A DNA stretch of 44,369 nt, taken from positions 1 through 44,369 of IMG/VR virus record IMGVR_UViG_3300047443_000093. The stretch is one strand, 5' to 3'. This document shows, one piece after another, positions 244-43,677 of the stretch. Origin of the DNA: a virus. Numbering within the stretch: the stretch's first letter is position 1; every line of letters begins with the position of its first letter. The notes beneath the pieces are model-generated. The model saw only the letters and a program-made list of their open reading frames with translations, was not told where the DNA came from and searched no databases. Both the position numbers and the translations under genes were made by a program.

Positions 244-1317
244 CTATTCCGGCTTATCGAGAAGCGAAACGGCACCCCTAGCAAGCCGCCTTTGAGAGGC
301 GGCTTTTGTATATCGGTTGACCTCTTTTGAGGTGGTGTGGCCGGTCACCGACATGATCTGTTTCTCGGTGGCGCCGTTGTTTGCCATGCGGGTTGCGGCG
401 ACCTTACGCAGGCCGTGAGCCGCGCAGTGAAACAGGCCGGCCTTGTCGCACTGTTTGCGGAACCAGTTGCCAAACCCGGCGGGCGTGAAGGGCTTGTTGA
501 ACTCGGTAACGAGATAGGTCATATCGCCGCAGGGCGATGCATCAAGAACCTTTTTCAGCTCGGGATGGATCGGCAATTCGAGTGTAACCGGATTCTTGTT
601 TCGGTTCTTGAACTGCGTGAACTTGAATGATCCGTCGACGACATGCTGTCGGCCGAGCACGATAGCGTCGCTCCGGCGCTGGCTCGTGTAGAGCATCAAC
701 GCCAAAGCGAGGCGAGGCTTAGTGCCGATGGGATGGGCTGCCTCAAACTGCGCCACCTCATTCTCCGTCCATGGGTGAAAGCCATCCGATCCACTCTTGA
801 AGTAGGGGATGTCTCGCGCGGGGTTCACGGAGGCCTTCTCGACGCCAGGTGATGTCGCCCACCGGAAAACGGCGCGCAATACCTTCACGCGGCTGTTGGC
901 AGCTTCGGGAAGGTCAACCTTGCGATCGCGAAGGGTGCGGACGGCCACAGCATTGAAGGCAGGTATTGGCACGTCTTCAAACAGGATTTTGGAGCCCGGC
1001 TTGATCGGCTCCGCCCACATGTGTTCGATGATCTGCTTGCGCACCAGCTGGGTTTGAGGATCGAGTAGCTTATATTCCCCGGATTGGAAATATTGCTGAC
1101 AGAGCCACCGGAAGGTGCCTTCCTTTGCCATCTTTGGCCCTTGGGGGGCTTCCTCGATCTGGCCGTTCAGCGCCTTGTAATAGGCCTCGTTGAACTCGTC
1201 GCTGCCCGGCACGCCGGGAAGGCGCACCTTCTTCTGTCCGCGCTTGCGGAAGTAGAATCGGAGCGTTCCGCCTGTCGTATCCTCGACGACGTACTTCTTC
1301 GAAAATTTCTTGGGCAT
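244..1317 (-). CDS. int: tyrosine recombinase (phage integrase)
   Basis: A site-specific recombinase of 357 aa that inserts and excises the prophage at the tRNA-Phe 3' end. The catalytic set is visible: Arg214 in TSQRRSD, His301 and Arg304 in HGLRK, His327 in TGHTT, and the nucleophile Tyr336 in NRYTKA. Residues 70-170 form the helical core-binding domain, and the N-terminal 60 residues are probably the arm-binding part. The start ATG overlaps the stop of the upstream HTH gene by one base (TGATG), implying translational coupling. The gene lies next to attL and reads toward it, as is usual for integrases. Confidence 0.95.
   Translation of the reverse strand: MPKKFSKKYVVEDTTGGTLRFYFRKRGQKKVRLPGVPGSDEFNEAYYKALNGQIEEAPQGPKMAKEGTFRWLCQQYFQSGEYKLLDPQTQLVRKQIIEHMWAEPIKPGSKILFEDVPIPAFNAVAVRTLRDRKVDLPEAANSRVKVLRAVFRWATSPGVEKASVNPARDIPYFKSGSDGFHPWTENEVAQFEAAHPIGTKPRLALALMLYTSQRRSDAIVLGRQHVVDGSFKFTQFKNRNKNPVTLELPIHPELKKVLDASPCGDMTYLVTEFNKPFTPAGFGNWFRKQCDKAGLFHCAAHGLRKVAATRMANNGATEKQIMSVTGHTTSKEVNRYTKAASQRRLARGAVSLLDKPE
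283..307 (+). terminator. rho-independent terminator reading inward from tRNA-Phe
   Basis: The stem AAGCCGCC / GGCGGCTT has a 7-nt loop and runs into a short T tract on the plus strand. It lies within the 3' coding end of the oppositely oriented integrase gene. It would stop transcription coming from the tRNA-Phe promoter before it runs antisense through int. The T tract is short, so strength is uncertain. Confidence 0.45.
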
Positions 1318-3210: not shown

Positions 3211-3785
3211 TACTGCGCCCAATCCATCGTTGCGTCGCGGCCTTTCCGCCACATGACCGGCTGCTGGTCACGAGCAATACGGTTCCTGCCCCGTGACATC
3301 GGGTGCTTAGGGTTGTTTGCCTTCGTGATTCCGAGGCACACCAAATCGACGCCGTGATAGGCAGCCTTTGCGCACATCCAAGTGTCGCGCTCCCGAAAAG
3401 TGCCGCCATCGCCCCATGCCGCTAGCATCGGTGTTGAGTGAGCCAGAGCGTAGTATAACGCCTCACGAAGATACCTGGCGTTCAGCGGGCCGACCGGGTC
3501 CGCCGCCGCCATCATGGCGGAGGGCTGCGGCGCGCGAAACGCGCAGAGATTCACAATGTAAAGACCGCCGTAACCCCACAGTTTGGCGAAATGGACCAGC
3601 TCCCTAACTGTCGGATCGTCTTTCTCGTGATCGGCAGTCGACGGATTAAGCATGCAGACGGGAAGGGAATAGAGGTAGCTATCCCAATGCCGCCGCAGGA
3701 CGTATCGAAAGCGCTCGCAATCAGAAATGGTGGCGAGCTTGCTAATTTCGGGGATCGGCGTGCCGAATAGATCAAGGTTGCTCAT
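3210..3785 (-). CDS. DUF1643 domain protein
   Basis: A protein of 191 aa that matches DUF1643 along most of its length. Diagnostic pieces are CMLNPSTADHEKDDPTVRE near residue 45, the WGYGGLYIVNLCAFRAP segment, AAWGDGG, and a C-terminal CLGITKANNPKHPMSRG. The family is widespread in phages and bacteria without an established activity. It overlaps the clamp gene upstream by four bases (ATGA) and the next gene by one or two, so it is a tightly coupled operon member. Confidence 0.88.
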   Translation of the reverse strand: MSNLDLFGTPIPEISKLATISDCERFRYVLRRHWDSYLYSLPVCMLNPSTADHEKDDPTVRELVHFAKLWGYGGLYIVNLCAFRAPQPSAMMAAADPVGPLNARYLREALYYALAHSTPMLAAWGDGGTFRERDTWMCAKAAYHGVDLVCLGITKANNPKHPMSRGRNRIARDQQPVMWRKGRDATMDWAQ

Positions 3786-4936
3786 CCCTCGGCACCTCGC
3801 GCCATCATCGGCGAGATGACGTAAAGTTCGTCCGAGCCTACCGATGGGTGAAAGACCGCATTCGGCAGGGAGCCGCCGAACCGGATGATGACATCCTGCG
3901 TGTCGATGGTGCTAAGGATGCCGCGCAGGGCCCCGTTGTTGAGGCCGATGGAAAAGCCGGTCTCGCCTTCGTACTGGATCGGCACGTAGTCGACGGCTGA
4001 CTCGCCTTCCTTGCTGGATAGCTCGACGCGCATAGTATCGCGTTCAAGGGTAAGCTTGATGCCGTCCTTGTCTGCCTCGGTGGCGACAAGGCAGACTCGA
4101 GCGACAGCAGCTTTCAGGGAGGCTACCGTCACGAAGATCTCGCGCTCGTAGTTCGAAGGTGCGGCCGTGAGATAGTGTTCCGGAAACTTGCCCTCGATCA
4201 GCTTGGAAATGAGCGTGACGCCATTACATCGGATGCGGATCAGGTTGTCGGCAACCTCGATGTTCGCCGGTTCCTTCACCTCGTCGAACAGCTTGCGGAT
4301 CGCGTGTGCCGTCTTGAGAGGGATGATGATGCCGGGGAAGTCGAGAAGCCGCTCCGTGCGGATCTGCACGGCGGCAAGGCCGATGCCATCCAGCGCGGCA
4401 AAGCCGATCCGCTCATCCTGCATCGGGTGCATGTGAATGCCCATCATGAAGGGGCGGCCGATATCCTTGGTCTGGACCGCGTGCGCGACCTTGCTGAAAG
4501 CGGCCGTCACCTCTGGCATGGCAATATCGAACGTCTTGCCCGCGATCTCGGAAGCCATCGACGGGAAGTCGCTGGCGGGCAGGCTGAAGATTGCAAAGCT
4601 GGATTTGCCCGATCGGATACGCACCTGGCCGTTGTAAGCACCGGGCAAGAACTCGATTTCCGCAGCCTCAGGCAGGTTGCGCACGATGTCGCGCAGATCG
4701 GTGCCCTTGATGGTGAACGCCTCGGCGTTGTCGGCGACATCGAGAAAGTCACAGCTGGACTCGATCTCGATATCCAGATCCGTGGCGCGCAGGACCAGCG
4801 CGTCATACTCGGGGCGCAGGAGAATGTTTCCGAGAACAGGGATCTTGGCGCGCTTGTCGACAGCCTCGAAAACAGCATCGAGCGCCGGCAGGAGCTGGCT
4901 GCGGTGGACGCGGAAATAGGACTGCTGCTTAGCCAT
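3782..4936 (-). CDS. DNA polymerase III beta subunit homologue (sliding clamp)
   Basis: A DnaN-family ring clamp (384 aa, close to the usual size of about 370) that would tether the replicative polymerase to DNA. Recognisable parts include FRVHRSQLLPALDAVFEAVD at the N-terminus, IPVLGNILLRP, TIKGTDLRDIVRNLPEA, LIEGKFPEHY, and the C-terminal YVISPMMA in place of the usual PMR ending. The start at 4936 removes an unconserved 22-residue extension. It overlaps the 60-aa gene upstream by eight bases. The C-terminal extension beyond PMM is unusual for host clamps. Alternatives to replication are decoying host clamp-binding proteins. Confidence 0.92.
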   Translation of the reverse strand: MAKQQSYFRVHRSQLLPALDAVFEAVDKRAKIPVLGNILLRPEYDALVLRATDLDIEIESSCDFLDVADNAEAFTIKGTDLRDIVRNLPEAAEIEFLPGAYNGQVRIRSGKSSFAIFSLPASDFPSMASEIAGKTFDIAMPEVTAAFSKVAHAVQTKDIGRPFMMGIHMHPMQDERIGFAALDGIGLAAVQIRTERLLDFPGIIIPLKTAHAIRKLFDEVKEPANIEVADNLIRIRCNGVTLISKLIEGKFPEHYLTAAPSNYEREIFVTVASLKAAVARVCLVATEADKDGIKLTLERDTMRVELSSKEGESAVDYVPIQYEGETGFSIGLNNGALRGILSTIDTQDVIIRFGGSLPNAVFHPSVGSDELYVISPMMARGAEG

Positions 4937-5111
4937 GAGCGCGGCGCTCCGGCTGGCAGCGGTCGGCAAGGCGCATCTCGTCGACGGGGGGGCGCAGCTC
5001 AAAGTCTCTGCCGAACAGATCGTACATCATCTGCAGGATCTCGCGGCGAGGCTCGCCATAGGCGACGGCGCGATAAAGCTTTTCAATTTCCAGTCTTGAT
5101 ACGTCGCGCAT
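4929..5111 (-). CDS. small hypothetical protein
   Basis: A 60-aa protein with a helical N-terminal half (RLEIEKLYRAVAYGEPRREI) and an acidic-to-basic tail. No family recognised. A clear GGAGG six bases before the ATG and an eight-base overlap with the clamp gene support expression. It may serve mainly to couple translation into the clamp gene. Confidence 0.65.
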   Translation of the reverse strand: MRDVSRLEIEKLYRAVAYGEPRREILQMMYDLFGRDFELRPPVDEMRLADRCQPERRAHG

Positions 5112-5842: not shown

Positions 5843-6253
5843 TCACTGGGCGCCGTAGTGGGACGCGCTTTCGAATGAGACCGCGAGATCCACGCCGGAC
5901 ACGAACGGAAGCTTGCCGCTCGCAATTGCCTTGATTGTCTCAAGGCGCTCTTCGGCGGCGGCAAGCCGGTTGTGCAGATGCATGACTGCTGCTGATTGCC
6001 CTGTTGGGGCTGCGCCGATGGCGGGACCGATAACAGCCATCGGCTCAACGCCGAGCGCATGGCAGATGGCAATCAGGGTAGAGACGGCCACACGGTTTGT
6101 GCCCTTCTCGTATTTCTGGACCTGCTGGAACGTGACGCTAATAGCGCCGGCCAACCTCTCCTGGCTGAACCCGGCCTGCTTGCGCAGATTTCGGATGGTG
6201 CCGCCGATCGCAATATCGGTCTCGTGCATTCTCTGAGAAATGGTTTGCTTCAT
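5843..6253 (-). CDS. XRE-family transcriptional regulator
   Basis: A 136-aa protein with a classic HTH_XRE domain at residues 15-75 (IRNLRKQAGFSQERLAGAIS, then VTFQQVQKYEKGTNRVAVST). The C-terminal half (residues 80-136) has no peptidase signature and may mediate oligomerisation. An AGGAG site precedes the start at 6253. It sits in the leftward early operon rather than in the divergent switch, so it probably regulates lytic or early genes. It may be a second repressor. Confidence 0.88.
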   Translation of the reverse strand: MKQTISQRMHETDIAIGGTIRNLRKQAGFSQERLAGAISVTFQQVQKYEKGTNRVAVSTLIAICHALGVEPMAVIGPAIGAAPTGQSAAVMHLHNRLAAAEERLETIKAIASGKLPFVSGVDLAVSFESASHYGAQ

Positions 6254-6597: not shown

Positions 6598-6654
6598 GCT
6601 TCGGTATCCGGCTTGGGAGGAGGAGATCACCGGACAGGACATAATGTGCATGTT

Positions 6655-6662
6655 ATTCACAT
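6655..6662. promoter_or_regulatory. ATTCACAT operator candidate (early leftward side)
   Basis: This octamer is identical to two copies in the repressor/cro intergenic region (7863-7870 and 7896-7903). Here it forms an imperfect inverted repeat with ATGTG at 6643-6647 and lies upstream of the leftward early operon, where a repressor site would be expected. Confidence 0.4.
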
Positions 6663-6920: not shown

Positions 6921-6935
6921 GTTCTTGTCTTGTTC
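6921..6935 (+). promoter_or_regulatory. LexA (SOS) box, alphaproteobacterial type
   Basis: GTTC-TTGTCTT-GTTC matches the alphaproteobacterial LexA direct repeat GTTC-N7-GTTC exactly. It overlaps a plausible promoter (TTGTTC at 6930-6935, with TTTTAT or TTTATA 16-17 bp downstream) and lies 50 bp before the 82-aa gene. The copy at 42144 has the same flanking TTGTTT. Repression by host LexA and release on DNA damage are inferred from the motif. Confidence 0.78.
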
Positions 6936-6985
6936 TTGTTTTCGAGTCATGTTTTATACGGTACTCGCGTTAAGGAGGTAGGAAC

Positions 6986-7234
6986 ATGCCATCGTATTTC
7001 GTCGTTCAGTCCTTCAGCTCTGGCAAAGGCGGCGTCTTGCCCGATTCTCCTTTCCAGGCTCAAAATATAGACCATGCGCGCCGAATGGCCCGACGGATGG
7101 CGCAGACGAAGGCAATGGTGGTTGCCTTTATGCGGGAGGGCAATCCAAAGACTGGCGATTATGGCGACCCAAAACTCATCTATGCCCACGGCGAAAATCT
7201 CCCCGAAGAAGTCGCCAGTATGGAACGAGCTTGA
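6986..7234 (+). CDS. small protein under LexA-box control; antirepressor candidate
   Basis: An 82-aa protein, first gene after the SOS box, with a very strong ribosome site (TAAGGAGG). It starts with a hydrophobic beta segment (MPSYFVVQSF), has a Lys/Gly-rich turn, a basic helix (DHARRMARRMAQTKAMVVAF) and an acidic tail (GENLPEEVASMERA). I recognise the type as a small hypothetical protein in Rhizobiales, with no assigned function. Its position next to the repressor suggests an induction role like that of the LexA-controlled tum gene of coliphage 186. That role is inference only. Confidence 0.7.
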   Translation: MPSYFVVQSFSSGKGGVLPDSPFQAQNIDHARRMARRMAQTKAMVVAFMREGNPKTGDYGDPKLIYAHGENLPEEVASMERA

Positions 7235-7247
7235 GGTATCTCTAATT

Positions 7248-7475
7248 ATGGCGATCATTCATCAGATCAGGCCGAAGTATAAGACCCGCAATGAGGAAAT
7301 CGTTGCGGGTCTCTTTAAGGCGGCTGGAGCAGATCCATCGCCGAGCCCCGAAATTATTGTAAAGCGGAAGGCGGCTGAGATCTCATATCTCATGGCGTTG
7401 GTTCACGGCGGCGATTGGCGCGTTGAGATTGATCACCAAGCGGGTTTTGTTCTGATTTCTCCACAGCTGCCGTAG
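7248..7475 (+). CDS. small hypothetical protein overlapping the repressor 3' end
   Basis: A 75-aa, mainly basic protein with a helix (KTRNEEIVAGLFKAAGADP), a second helix (IVKRKAAEISYLMALVHGG) and a C-terminal beta hairpin. It follows the SOS-box gene by 13 bases and is probably cotranscribed. Its last 86 bases overlap the end of the repressor gene on the opposite strand, so its transcript is antisense to the repressor mRNA. No family recognised; the start at 7248 has only a moderate ribosome site. Confidence 0.55.
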   Translation: MAIIHQIRPKYKTRNEEIVAGLFKAAGADPSPSPEIIVKRKAAEISYLMALVHGGDWRVEIDHQAGFVLISPQLP

Positions 7476-7818
7476 GTGACACGAACGTGCCAATGATTGC
7501 GATTGCTCGATCTAGCTGGGAGCGATCCACCCCATAAGCGAGCATCGCTGATCGCAACATCGCATCAGGAGATTTAGCCTGATCCCTATTCTTCGGGTCG
7601 GTACTCAAAAGGTCTGCTGGCGAGCATCCATAAAGGCTAGCCAAGCCCTCGACGTGCTGTTGAAGATATGGAGTTAGAGCATTTTCCATCTTCGATAGTA
7701 GGGCGCGCGACACGTTGATGGCGTCTGCGGCTTCCTGTTGGCCTATTCCTTTGTGATCTCTCCATGCTTGGAGAAAGGTCCGACCAAGAACGGGTTTGGG
7801 TTTCTTTATGGGTGCCAT
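7390..7818 (-). CDS. XRE-family phage repressor candidate (cI position)
   Basis: A 142-aa protein with an HTH_XRE domain at about residues 15-70 (LGRTFLQAWRDHKGIGQQEA, then ADAINVSRALLSKMENALTP). The C-terminal part is short and polar (DRSQLDRAIAIIGTFVSPTA) with no S24/LexA Ser-Lys peptidase signature, so self-cleavage is not expected. Divergent from a small Cro-like gene across 92 bp with repeated ATTCAC motifs, it is the best lysogeny-repressor candidate. The ribosome site is weak or distant. An alternative is that the XRE gene at 5843 is the true immunity repressor. Confidence 0.78.
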   Translation of the reverse strand: MAPIKKPKPVLGRTFLQAWRDHKGIGQQEAADAINVSRALLSKMENALTPYLQQHVEGLASLYGCSPADLLSTDPKNRDQAKSPDAMLRSAMLAYGVDRSQLDRAIAIIGTFVSPTAAVEKSEQNPLGDQSQRANRRREPTP

Positions 7819-7862
7819 ATTCAGATTTTCGCACCCCTCGCAATCGCCGTCGATGCAATGTC

Positions 7863-7903
7863 ATTCACATAGTGCTTGACATTCACGTTCATCATATTCA
7901 CAT
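7863..7903. promoter_or_regulatory. repressor/cro operator-promoter region
   Basis: The intergenic region 7819-7910 holds ATTCACAT (7863-7870), ATTCACGT (7881-7888) and ATTCACAT (7896-7903). A TTGACA -35 element (7876-7881) reads toward the Cro-like gene; no good -10 is visible at 17 bp. Three spaced repeats straddling a divergent promoter between two HTH genes are typical of phage operators. Confidence 0.6.
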
Positions 7904-40335: not shown

Positions 40336-40634
40336 CAGTTCAGTTCCGCCTTGTGCGCTTTGTCGATCGATCCCAGCAGTGAATCCGAGAAGCCTTCCAA
40401 CGCGACTAGCGCATTCGCGAAGCGCTGCGCATCGGGCGTCCCGAGGACGCTCATTCCGTTATCTTTGAGATCGCGACCGACCTGAACGATCACGGAATTG
40501 GCAAATTCACGCATATCCGGCGTCGTTGATCCGAGGCTGCCGAGTAAATGGCCGATCATGATGTCGTGCATCAGGCAACGTGCATCCAATTCGGCGATAG
40601 TGCTTTCCAGTTTTTTAACGCGGCTCTCGATCAT
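40335..40634 (-). CDS. small coiled-coil hypothetical protein
   Basis: A 99-aa protein. It opens with a short heptad-like helix (VKKLESTIAELDARCLMHDI), as in small phage proteins of this type, and ends in a helical segment (RFANALVALEGFSDSLLGSI). Overlaps the SRAP gene by ATGA. Function unknown. Confidence 0.62.
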   Translation of the reverse strand: MIESRVKKLESTIAELDARCLMHDIMIGHLLGSLGSTTPDMREFANSVIVQVGRDLKDNGMSVLGTPDAQRFANALVALEGFSDSLLGSIDKAHKAELN

Positions 40635-41368
40635 TTTTCATCTCCCGAGGATTTCTTCGCTGGCAACAGCATCAGCTCATCATCTGGCAATGGCCGCTGA
40701 AGCGGCTTCGCTTCTTCCCACGGCGCTGTTAGCCAGGTCCCGACTTCGTCCTGATTTCTTAGGATGACGGGCATAGCCTTTTGATGAATCGGCCCAACGA
40801 TCGCGTTCGGCTCGGTCGTCAGGAAGCCGTAGAGATCGACCGTAATCTCTCCCTCCTTGACCTTCCTCACCGATTGCCATTGCGGCACCCATATGCCTGC
40901 GAAGAACATCAGCGGTTCGTCGGCGCTGCCTGCGAACCATGCGTTTGGAGTTCTGCCGCCCTCGATTTTGCTTGCTGGATCGGGCTCGGCAAACCGGTTG
41001 AAGGGCACAACGCAACGGTTCTCCACGCCTAGCCATCTCTTCCAATGTTTGCTCGATGTGTTGCGGACGTTCGTCGTACCTCCATCAGGCTCCATCCTCA
41101 AAAGCTCGTCGAAGTCGATTTGCTTGCCCTTGGCGCGGAGCTTGTCGGCTCGCTTTGTCGTGGCGTCCAGAAGTGCTTTCTGAGAAGAGGGCAGTCCCCA
41201 TCGAACCTTCACCAGCTCCCGGCCGGCAGACGTATTCCGGACGATCGGTCCCATTTGATCGGGATAGAGGTCCAGCTCCGGCTCAAGGTTCCCGACGCTG
41301 TCGATCAACGCCTTGGTGATCTGGCGAATGGATTCCTGGTTGGTCGAGATATTATAGAGATTGCACAT
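40631..41368 (-). CDS. SRAP-family protein (YedK/HMCES-like)
   Basis: A 245-aa protein that would crosslink to abasic sites in single-stranded DNA and shield them. The catalytic Cys2 follows the initiator Met (MCNLYN). The Asn-Arg motif is TTNVRNTSS (around 98-106), the active-site Glu is E128 in VPFNRFAEP, and the His is H195 in PIHQKAMPVIL. An SOS-type LexA box controls the operon from 42144, in keeping with the family's link to DNA damage. It would protect phage or host DNA during SOS. Confidence 0.93.
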   Translation of the reverse strand: MCNLYNISTNQESIRQITKALIDSVGNLEPELDLYPDQMGPIVRNTSAGRELVKVRWGLPSSQKALLDATTKRADKLRAKGKQIDFDELLRMEPDGGTTNVRNTSSKHWKRWLGVENRCVVPFNRFAEPDPASKIEGGRTPNAWFAGSADEPLMFFAGIWVPQWQSVRKVKEGEITVDLYGFLTTEPNAIVGPIHQKAMPVILRNQDEVGTWLTAPWEEAKPLQRPLPDDELMLLPAKKSSGDEK

Positions 41369-41379
41369 TCAAAACTCCT

Positions 41380-41883
41380 CTATCCTCGCGTTTGCGAGAC
41401 CACGACGATTTTCGCTGAGCCTTTGAGGCTGCATTTCTTGCACCTCAGCAGCTGCGCGGCGTCAGAGACTGGAGCATCCTTTCCTAAGATTTTCTCCAGC
41501 CTTAGTCGTTCAACCTCGGTCTTCCGTCCGCAAGTGCAATGCGCATAGAGCCTATGCCACTCCCTCAGGTCCGAAAATGCAACAGCATCATTCTTTCTGG
41601 CCTTCGGATCGATGTATCCCCTCAGCTTCGCCCATTCTTCGGGCGAAAAGTGAAAATGAAGGCGGCATCGATTGCTAAATCCATTCTCGGTGCGTGTGCA
41701 ACCCAGAGATTTGGCGACCGGTGATAGAAGCGATGGCATCCCGAGATTGCCATACTCTTCCAAAAGCTCCTTTCGATTGAGACGACGCAGGATCTCGCAA
41801 TCCTCGCAGATGACGTCGACGGTCTCCCCCTTGTGGTCAGCAAGCATATTGGGAGGTGATTCTGCACGTTCAGTGTTGCTCAT
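41380..41883 (-). CDS. putative zinc-binding protein
   Basis: A 167-aa protein with CEDC near residue 26, CTCG around 118 and CKKC near 148, giving possible zinc ribbons. A central region with NRCRLHFHFSPEEWAKLRGY may be a DNA- or protein-binding segment. It lies just upstream of the SRAP gene in the LexA-box operon and overlaps the 63-aa gene by 14 bases. No family recognised. Confidence 0.68.
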   Translation of the reverse strand: MSNTERAESPPNMLADHKGETVDVICEDCEILRRLNRKELLEEYGNLGMPSLLSPVAKSLGCTRTENGFSNRCRLHFHFSPEEWAKLRGYIDPKARKNDAVAFSDLREWHRLYAHCTCGRKTEVERLRLEKILGKDAPVSDAAQLLRCKKCSLKGSAKIVVVSQTRG

Positions 41884-42061
41884 CAGATCGCATGTGCTCG
41901 ACTACGGCGCGGGCGTTGGCGATCTTCCGCAGAAATGCATCCGACTTAGCGATGGTGCCGTTTCCCTGCCGCTGATCAAAGACATCCTCACCGAGGAAGG
42001 CGATTAGGTCACGAATGACTTCTGCATCGCCGGGAGTGATTGTGTAGTCGGTCATTTGCAT
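41870..42061 (-). CDS. small hypothetical protein, first gene of LexA-box operon
   Basis: A 63-aa helical protein (PGDAEVIRDLIAFLGEDVFD, later SDAFLRKIANARAVVEHMRS). The GGAG site favours the start at 42061, though an ATG at 42055 is equally near. It is the first gene after the LexA-box promoter. Confidence 0.62.
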   Translation of the reverse strand: MQMTDYTITPGDAEVIRDLIAFLGEDVFDQRQGNGTIAKSDAFLRKIANARAVVEHMRSDEQH

Positions 42062-42143: not shown

Positions 42144-42158
42144 GTTCTTATTATGTTC
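42144..42158. promoter_or_regulatory. LexA (SOS) box of the SRAP operon
   Basis: GTTC-TTATTAT-GTTC matches the alphaproteobacterial LexA direct repeat exactly. On the minus strand it reads GAAC-ATAATAA-GAAC and encloses the -10 hexamer of the leftward promoter, so LexA binding would block transcription. Confidence 0.82.
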
Positions 42159-43660: not shown

Positions 43661-43677
43661 CGGCTCTGGGCACCACT
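43661..43677 (+). repeat. attR core (17 bp)
   Basis: An exact copy of the tRNA-Phe 3' end at 114-130, without the rest of the tRNA. It marks the right junction of the prophage. Confidence 0.93.

Follow-up and report, generated by a model that had tools for sequence, protein, structure and literature searches.

A putative LexA-controlled antirepressor gene that overlaps a peptidase-less repressor gene in rhizobial-type temperate phages

Introduction

Release of LexA by RecA-stimulated cleavage is established in other systems. Among described phage antirepressors, Tum of coliphage 186 and GfoA/GftA of Gifsy act on non-cleavable repressors (PMC3121763). In the Gifsy case, a LexA-controlled small protein is directed against a peptidase-less repressor (GfoR/GtgR), so that induction proceeds via LexA and not via repressor cleavage, and the antirepressor gene lies next to dinI, well away from the immunity region (PMC3121763). 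Tum is likewise a LexA-controlled antirepressor of a temperate phage, with 146 aa and a DinI-like half (PMC3121763). In TF-smORF induction modules, small proteins also inactivate a phage repressor without proteolysis, in a SOS-independent manner that has been studied with autoproteolytic cI (PMC10432266).

Here, we describe a candidate module of this kind in the immunity region of an IMG/VR virus sequence of 44,369 nucleotides, the whole of which we refer to as the window, and in 51 non-redundant rhizobial loci obtained by scans with its 75-aa protein. Like the Gifsy and 186 systems, the locus pairs a predicted LexA-controlled small protein with a repressor that has no peptidase domain, but its small gene is convergent with the repressor gene and overlaps it, whereas the Gifsy antirepressor gene is remote; the host class is also different, and the 75-aa protein matches only the family phrog_32610. 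Unlike Tum, neither small protein of the window matches DinI, and the layout differs from that of 186. In contrast to the TF-smORF modules, there is a LexA box and the repressor has no S24 domain. The 75-aa protein has no match among the described antirepressor families in the libraries, and its separation from Tum and GfoA is at the level of these family searches. Our best reading is that the module would work like 186 Tum or Gifsy GfoA/GftA, using an unrelated protein family in a new overlapping layout; we found no description of a rhizobial 75-aa/repressor module in the searchable literature.

Results

The window carries a tRNA-Phe (GAA) gene at 53-128, the 3' end of which is repeated exactly over 13 bases (TCTGGGCACCACT) at 43665-43677 near the right end, and it encodes a tyrosine integrase (247-1317, minus strand) and a terminase. 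Because of these features, we interpret the window as an integrated temperate phage of rhizobial type, with the repeat pair as the likely attL and attR. The features of the module and its surroundings are collected in Table 1. We also found a phage-encoded DNA polymerase III beta sliding clamp with three Pfam domains (3782-5002, minus strand) and, in the left arm, a second XRE protein of 136 aa (5843-6253, minus strand) that by eye resembles rhizobial chromosomal XRE regulators.

Table 1. Coordinates of the module and related features in the window
Feature	Position	Strand	Basis or remark
LexA box GTTC-N7-GTTC, GTTCTTGTCTTGTTC	6921-6935	+	Exact; overlaps the likely -35 region of the 82-aa/75-aa operon
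Shine-Dalgarno sequence TAAGGAGGT of the 82-aa gene	6971-6979	+	Sequence
82-aa gene, putative accessory SOS-regulated protein, optional in the module	6986-7234	+	ORF, locus comparison, predicted fold
75-aa gene (phrog_32610), proposed LexA-controlled antirepressor	7248-7475	+	ORF, PHROG match, conservation across loci
Convergent overlap of the 75-aa gene with the repressor 3' end, 86 bp	7390-7475		Both frames constrained across the family
142-aa XRE repressor without peptidase domain	7390-7818	-	HTH at residues 15-70, helix pair LRSAMLAYGVD..., tail GDQSQRANRRREPTP
Candidate operator ATGTCATTCACAT	7858-7870		Between the repressor and Cro-like genes; predicted binding site
Second candidate operator ATCATATTCACAT, weaker	7891-7903		Sequence, 2 mismatches
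Candidate left operator ATGTTATTCACAT	6650-6662		Upstream of leftward genes; exact recurrence of ATGTnATTCACAT
Cro-like HTH gene, 64 aa	7911-8105	+	Divergent from the repressor; Pfam/PHROG matches
SRAP (SOS response associated peptidase), PF02586	40631-41368	-	Pfam match
Second LexA box	42144-42158	-	83 bp upstream of the SRAP-containing leftward operon (42061 to 40631)

An earlier reading of this DNA, made from the sequence alone, had noted an exact GTTC-N7-GTTC box before the 82-aa gene, and we found that it is indeed present at 6921-6935. Alone, the bare pattern is weak evidence, because it occurs 3 times in the 44-kb window compared to 1.3 times expected by chance. Its extended form, GTTCTTnTnnTGTTCTTGTTT, is found within the window only at 6921-6935 and 42144, with 0 expected. 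The box is located at -65 from the 82-aa start in the window and in the related loci L037 and L038 and at -64 in locus L004. Across the 51 loci, an exact sense box is found at most 450 bp upstream of the 75-aa gene in 37, compared to 7 of 524 control tiles and 0.6% of shuffles; the enrichment of loci over tiles has a Fisher p of about 1e-39, a value that overstates independence since the loci share ancestry, and the box is present in 30 of 42 loci once close relatives are removed. In many loci, TTGACT, a likely -35 element, is directly 3' of the second GTTC. A sigma-70 consensus scan identified no promoter in the region, as may be expected with an alphaproteobacterial promoter. The 14 loci without an exact box include two with a one-mismatch box at the usual place and one with a box in the opposite orientation, and these 14 therefore point to another signal or to decay.

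The sequence GTTCN7GTTC is the published Caulobacter LexA box (PMC12700426, PMC9578287), and where relatives were found in bacterial genomes, all named hosts belong to the Hyphomicrobiales, e.g., Rhizobium, Shinella, Mesorhizobium, and Aminobacter. For a control, we used the lexA promoters of 12 host genomes, all of which contain GAACN7GAAC, the same site read on the other strand, 61 to 97 bp before the lexA start; the recA promoter served less well, with an exact box in only 3 of the 12 hosts. Since every lexA promoter checked carries the same box, we assign GTTC-N7-GTTC as the LexA site of these hosts. The proposal that the small-gene operon is under LexA control is thus well supported by the conservation of the box, to which host LexA would bind.

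Several other elements were seen in these promoters and loci. The second LexA box of the window and the leftward operon behind it (40631-42061), which ends in the SRAP gene, look like a phage-borne SOS repair unit. The inverted repeat AGGAA-N4-TTCCT is present in the promoter of the 75-aa operon in 18 loci (L042, L043, L046, L048, L049, L070-L073, L075, L077, L080, L082, L086, L088, L092, L095, and L097), usually just 3' of the TTGACT -35; some of the loci with this repeat have no exact LexA box, and the repeat is absent elsewhere in these loci. We considered it as a host regulon element and rejected this, as it is not enriched in host genomes. Five loci without a LexA box (L066, L076, L078, L079, and L084) share an element around TGGTCnGACCAcgaatgagggcgcg, located 60 to 100 bp upstream of the 75-aa gene and imperfect in some of them, notably L066, that is perhaps a different control. 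One member of the set, L095, is deposited as 'Synechococcus phage Yong-M2-251' (OM868082) and has the rhizobial module with a GTTCN7GTTC box; its stated cyanobacterial host may be wrong, or its real host may be an associated rhizobial bacterium. In addition, L181 (G007:C1:652339) is a decayed second copy of the module, with an internal stop in the 75-aa frame and the LexA box at -342.

The 75-aa proteins of the loci are 49 to 81% identical to that of the window, which matches phrog_32610, a PHROG family without an annotated function, over residues 9-73 (E 3.6e-14). Beyond this family, it has no PHROG match at E<0.1 and no Pfam match, and its sole NCBIfam match was meaningless. The predicted structure has an alpha-alpha-beta-beta order (pLDDT 86), for which a fold search against solved structures returned nothing convincing and no antirepressor fold. 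In the fold searches of the 75-aa and 82-aa models, the MADS-box and PsaD-like rows were weak or had a large rmsd, and sequence searches among solved structures gave no match. An ImmA-type protease antirepressor is not indicated, as the 75-residue model and the Pfam search show no peptidase domain. Along the part that does not overlap the repressor gene, pN/pS is 0.35 with saturated synonymous sites, which indicates that the 75-aa product is under purifying selection as a protein. A scan with an 82-aa relative added six more modules with the same layout, and the cultured phage RHph_N3_2 has the same overlapping 75-aa/repressor pair without an exact box.

The second small gene had been described as running antisense to the 3' end of the repressor gene over its last 86 bases, and this was confirmed for the 75-aa ORF (7390-7475). 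In all 50 loci with downstream sequence, the last 50 to 149 bp of a short HTH repressor gene are shared with the 75-aa gene, and the antisense phase of this overlap is one and the same throughout. Synonymous codons of the 75-aa gene are strongly constrained inside the overlap and match the expectation from codon usage outside it (22 versus 33 columns; mean excess, 0.137 versus 0.017; p 2.4e-4). Since the constraint is confined to the overlap, the repressor tail is selected too, i.e., both frames are. When synonymous codons were redrawn, the repressor frame stayed open in about 47% of loci, compared to all 50 observed, in a test that is lenient because the observed stop was chosen as the end point.

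This arrangement could also act through the transcript, with LexA-controlled transcription into the repressor gene lowering repressor by RNA pairing or polymerase collision and the small proteins mattering little. The overlap in 50 of 50 loci in one phase, and a codon constraint that is strongest inside it, would be expected if so; however, dual coding accounts for the same constraint, the overlap is confined to the final 50 to 149 bp of the repressor mRNA, far from where this mRNA begins, and the 75-aa product is conserved as a protein outside the overlap. We therefore consider this explanation unlikely, and the earlier suggestion that an opposing transcript by itself lowers repressor is disfavored.

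As the sequence-only reading had stated, the 142-aa XRE repressor lacks a LexA/S24 peptidase signature: its Pfam matches are to HTH families only, and no S24 or LexA peptidase was found in any of the 50 locus repressors. By its domain content, it is thus not a self-cleaving CI of the lambda type, which has a C-terminal S24 peptidase. The N-terminal HTHs of the locus repressors form 5 groups that show no detectable similarity to one another (with a stricter cut, 12). The C-terminus is kept in most loci, with a helix pair that is usually LRSALLAYGVDxxxLxxA and a tail like DQSxPASRRRE. These comparisons indicate that the DNA-binding domain is exchangeable and that the 75-aa protein and the repressor tail stay. 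Near the repressor gene of the window, the candidate operator sequence ATGTnATTCACAT occurs exactly at 7858-7870 and 6650-6662.

We considered covariation between the 75-aa protein and the repressor C-terminus (r 0.26, p 0.001) as evidence of contact and dropped it, because it was lost on exclusion of the overlap (r 0.08, p 0.14), so that direct co-evolution of contact surfaces is unsupported. That result, and the lack of a known-fold match, would suit a 75-aa protein that acts as an SOS effector with no relation to the repressor, e.g., a host-takeover protein, and is trapped beside it by the gene overlap. Yet repeated HTH exchange has not separated the pair, the host genomes have no S24 gene near the 75-aa gene (0 of 45 S24 matches within 20 kb of 19 matches to the 75-aa profile, in 15 genomes), and there would otherwise be no visible route from DNA damage to inactivation of a peptidase-less repressor; we regard an unrelated effector as improbable.

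The 82-aa gene was reported to have a very strong ribosome site, which our analysis reproduced (TAAGGAGGT at 6971-6979, ORF 6986-7234). Its product has no Pfam, NCBIfam, or PHROG match, and its model (beta-beta-alpha-beta-beta, pLDDT 89) gave nothing convincing in a fold search against solved structures. Of the 51 loci, only 7 have the 82-aa gene ahead of the 75-aa gene, and its relatives adjoin plasmid-borne SRAP genes where no 75-aa gene is present, the family being defined by a single-protein scan of one locus relative and an alignment of the window and viral/genome loci only. L004, a Pseudochrobactrum prophage-like region, lacks a 75-aa gene and has an S24-type repressor opposite its LexA box and 82-aa gene. 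A closely similar HTH is found in L050, where the repressor ends in a short C-terminus without S24 and is accompanied by the 75-aa gene. Judged from these two loci, self-cleavage and 75-aa control look as if they had been exchanged in nature, an argument that uses a single S24 example. Although the 82-aa gene is first in the operon, with the strongest ribosome site and a LexA box at -65 that is conserved in several relatives, it is very improbable that the antirepressor is its product, with some other SOS role left to the 75-aa protein, as the 82-aa gene is missing from about 44 of 51 modules and occurs beside a self-cleaving type of repressor and beside plasmid SRAP genes. Thus, the conserved core of the module is the 75-aa gene, not the 82-aa gene, and the earlier prediction of an antirepressor encoded by the small genes fits the first and fits the second poorly. 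The 82-aa protein is best read as a co-regulated SOS accessory and not as the main inducer.

Discussion

We propose, with a probability of about 0.72, that the module is a LexA-controlled antirepressor-repressor pair that confers SOS-responsive immunity on rhizobial-type temperate phages. In the lysogen, host LexA at 6921-6935 would block the operon promoter, and the non-cleavable XRE repressor would hold the lytic promoters, probably at the ATGTnATTCACAT sites. On DNA damage, the normal RecA route would lead to LexA cleavage and so to transcription of the operon; the 75-aa product would then bind the repressor, and our guess is that the contact is most likely in its short C-terminal part (the helix pair and tail). 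The repressor would leave its operators, the Cro-like and lytic genes would turn on, and the prophage would be induced, with convergent transcription through the repressor gene possibly adding to the effect.

A more far-reaching idea, which we hold only tentatively, is that one stretch of DNA encodes, on opposite strands, the antirepressor and the repressor tail that it grips. The DNA-binding domain, and with it immunity, could then be exchanged freely while the SOS switch is kept, and the whole unit could be swapped against a self-cleaving S24 repressor. If this is true, lock and key would be physically inseparable.

The antirepressor-repressor reading proposes a testable function for an unnamed family of phage proteins, and the overlap is a rare example of antisense genes with measurable selection on each frame. 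The same reading would also show by what means SOS inducibility is possible in a large group of rhizobial prophages that have no cleavable repressor, and it warns that a missing S24 domain does not imply that a prophage is not SOS inducible.
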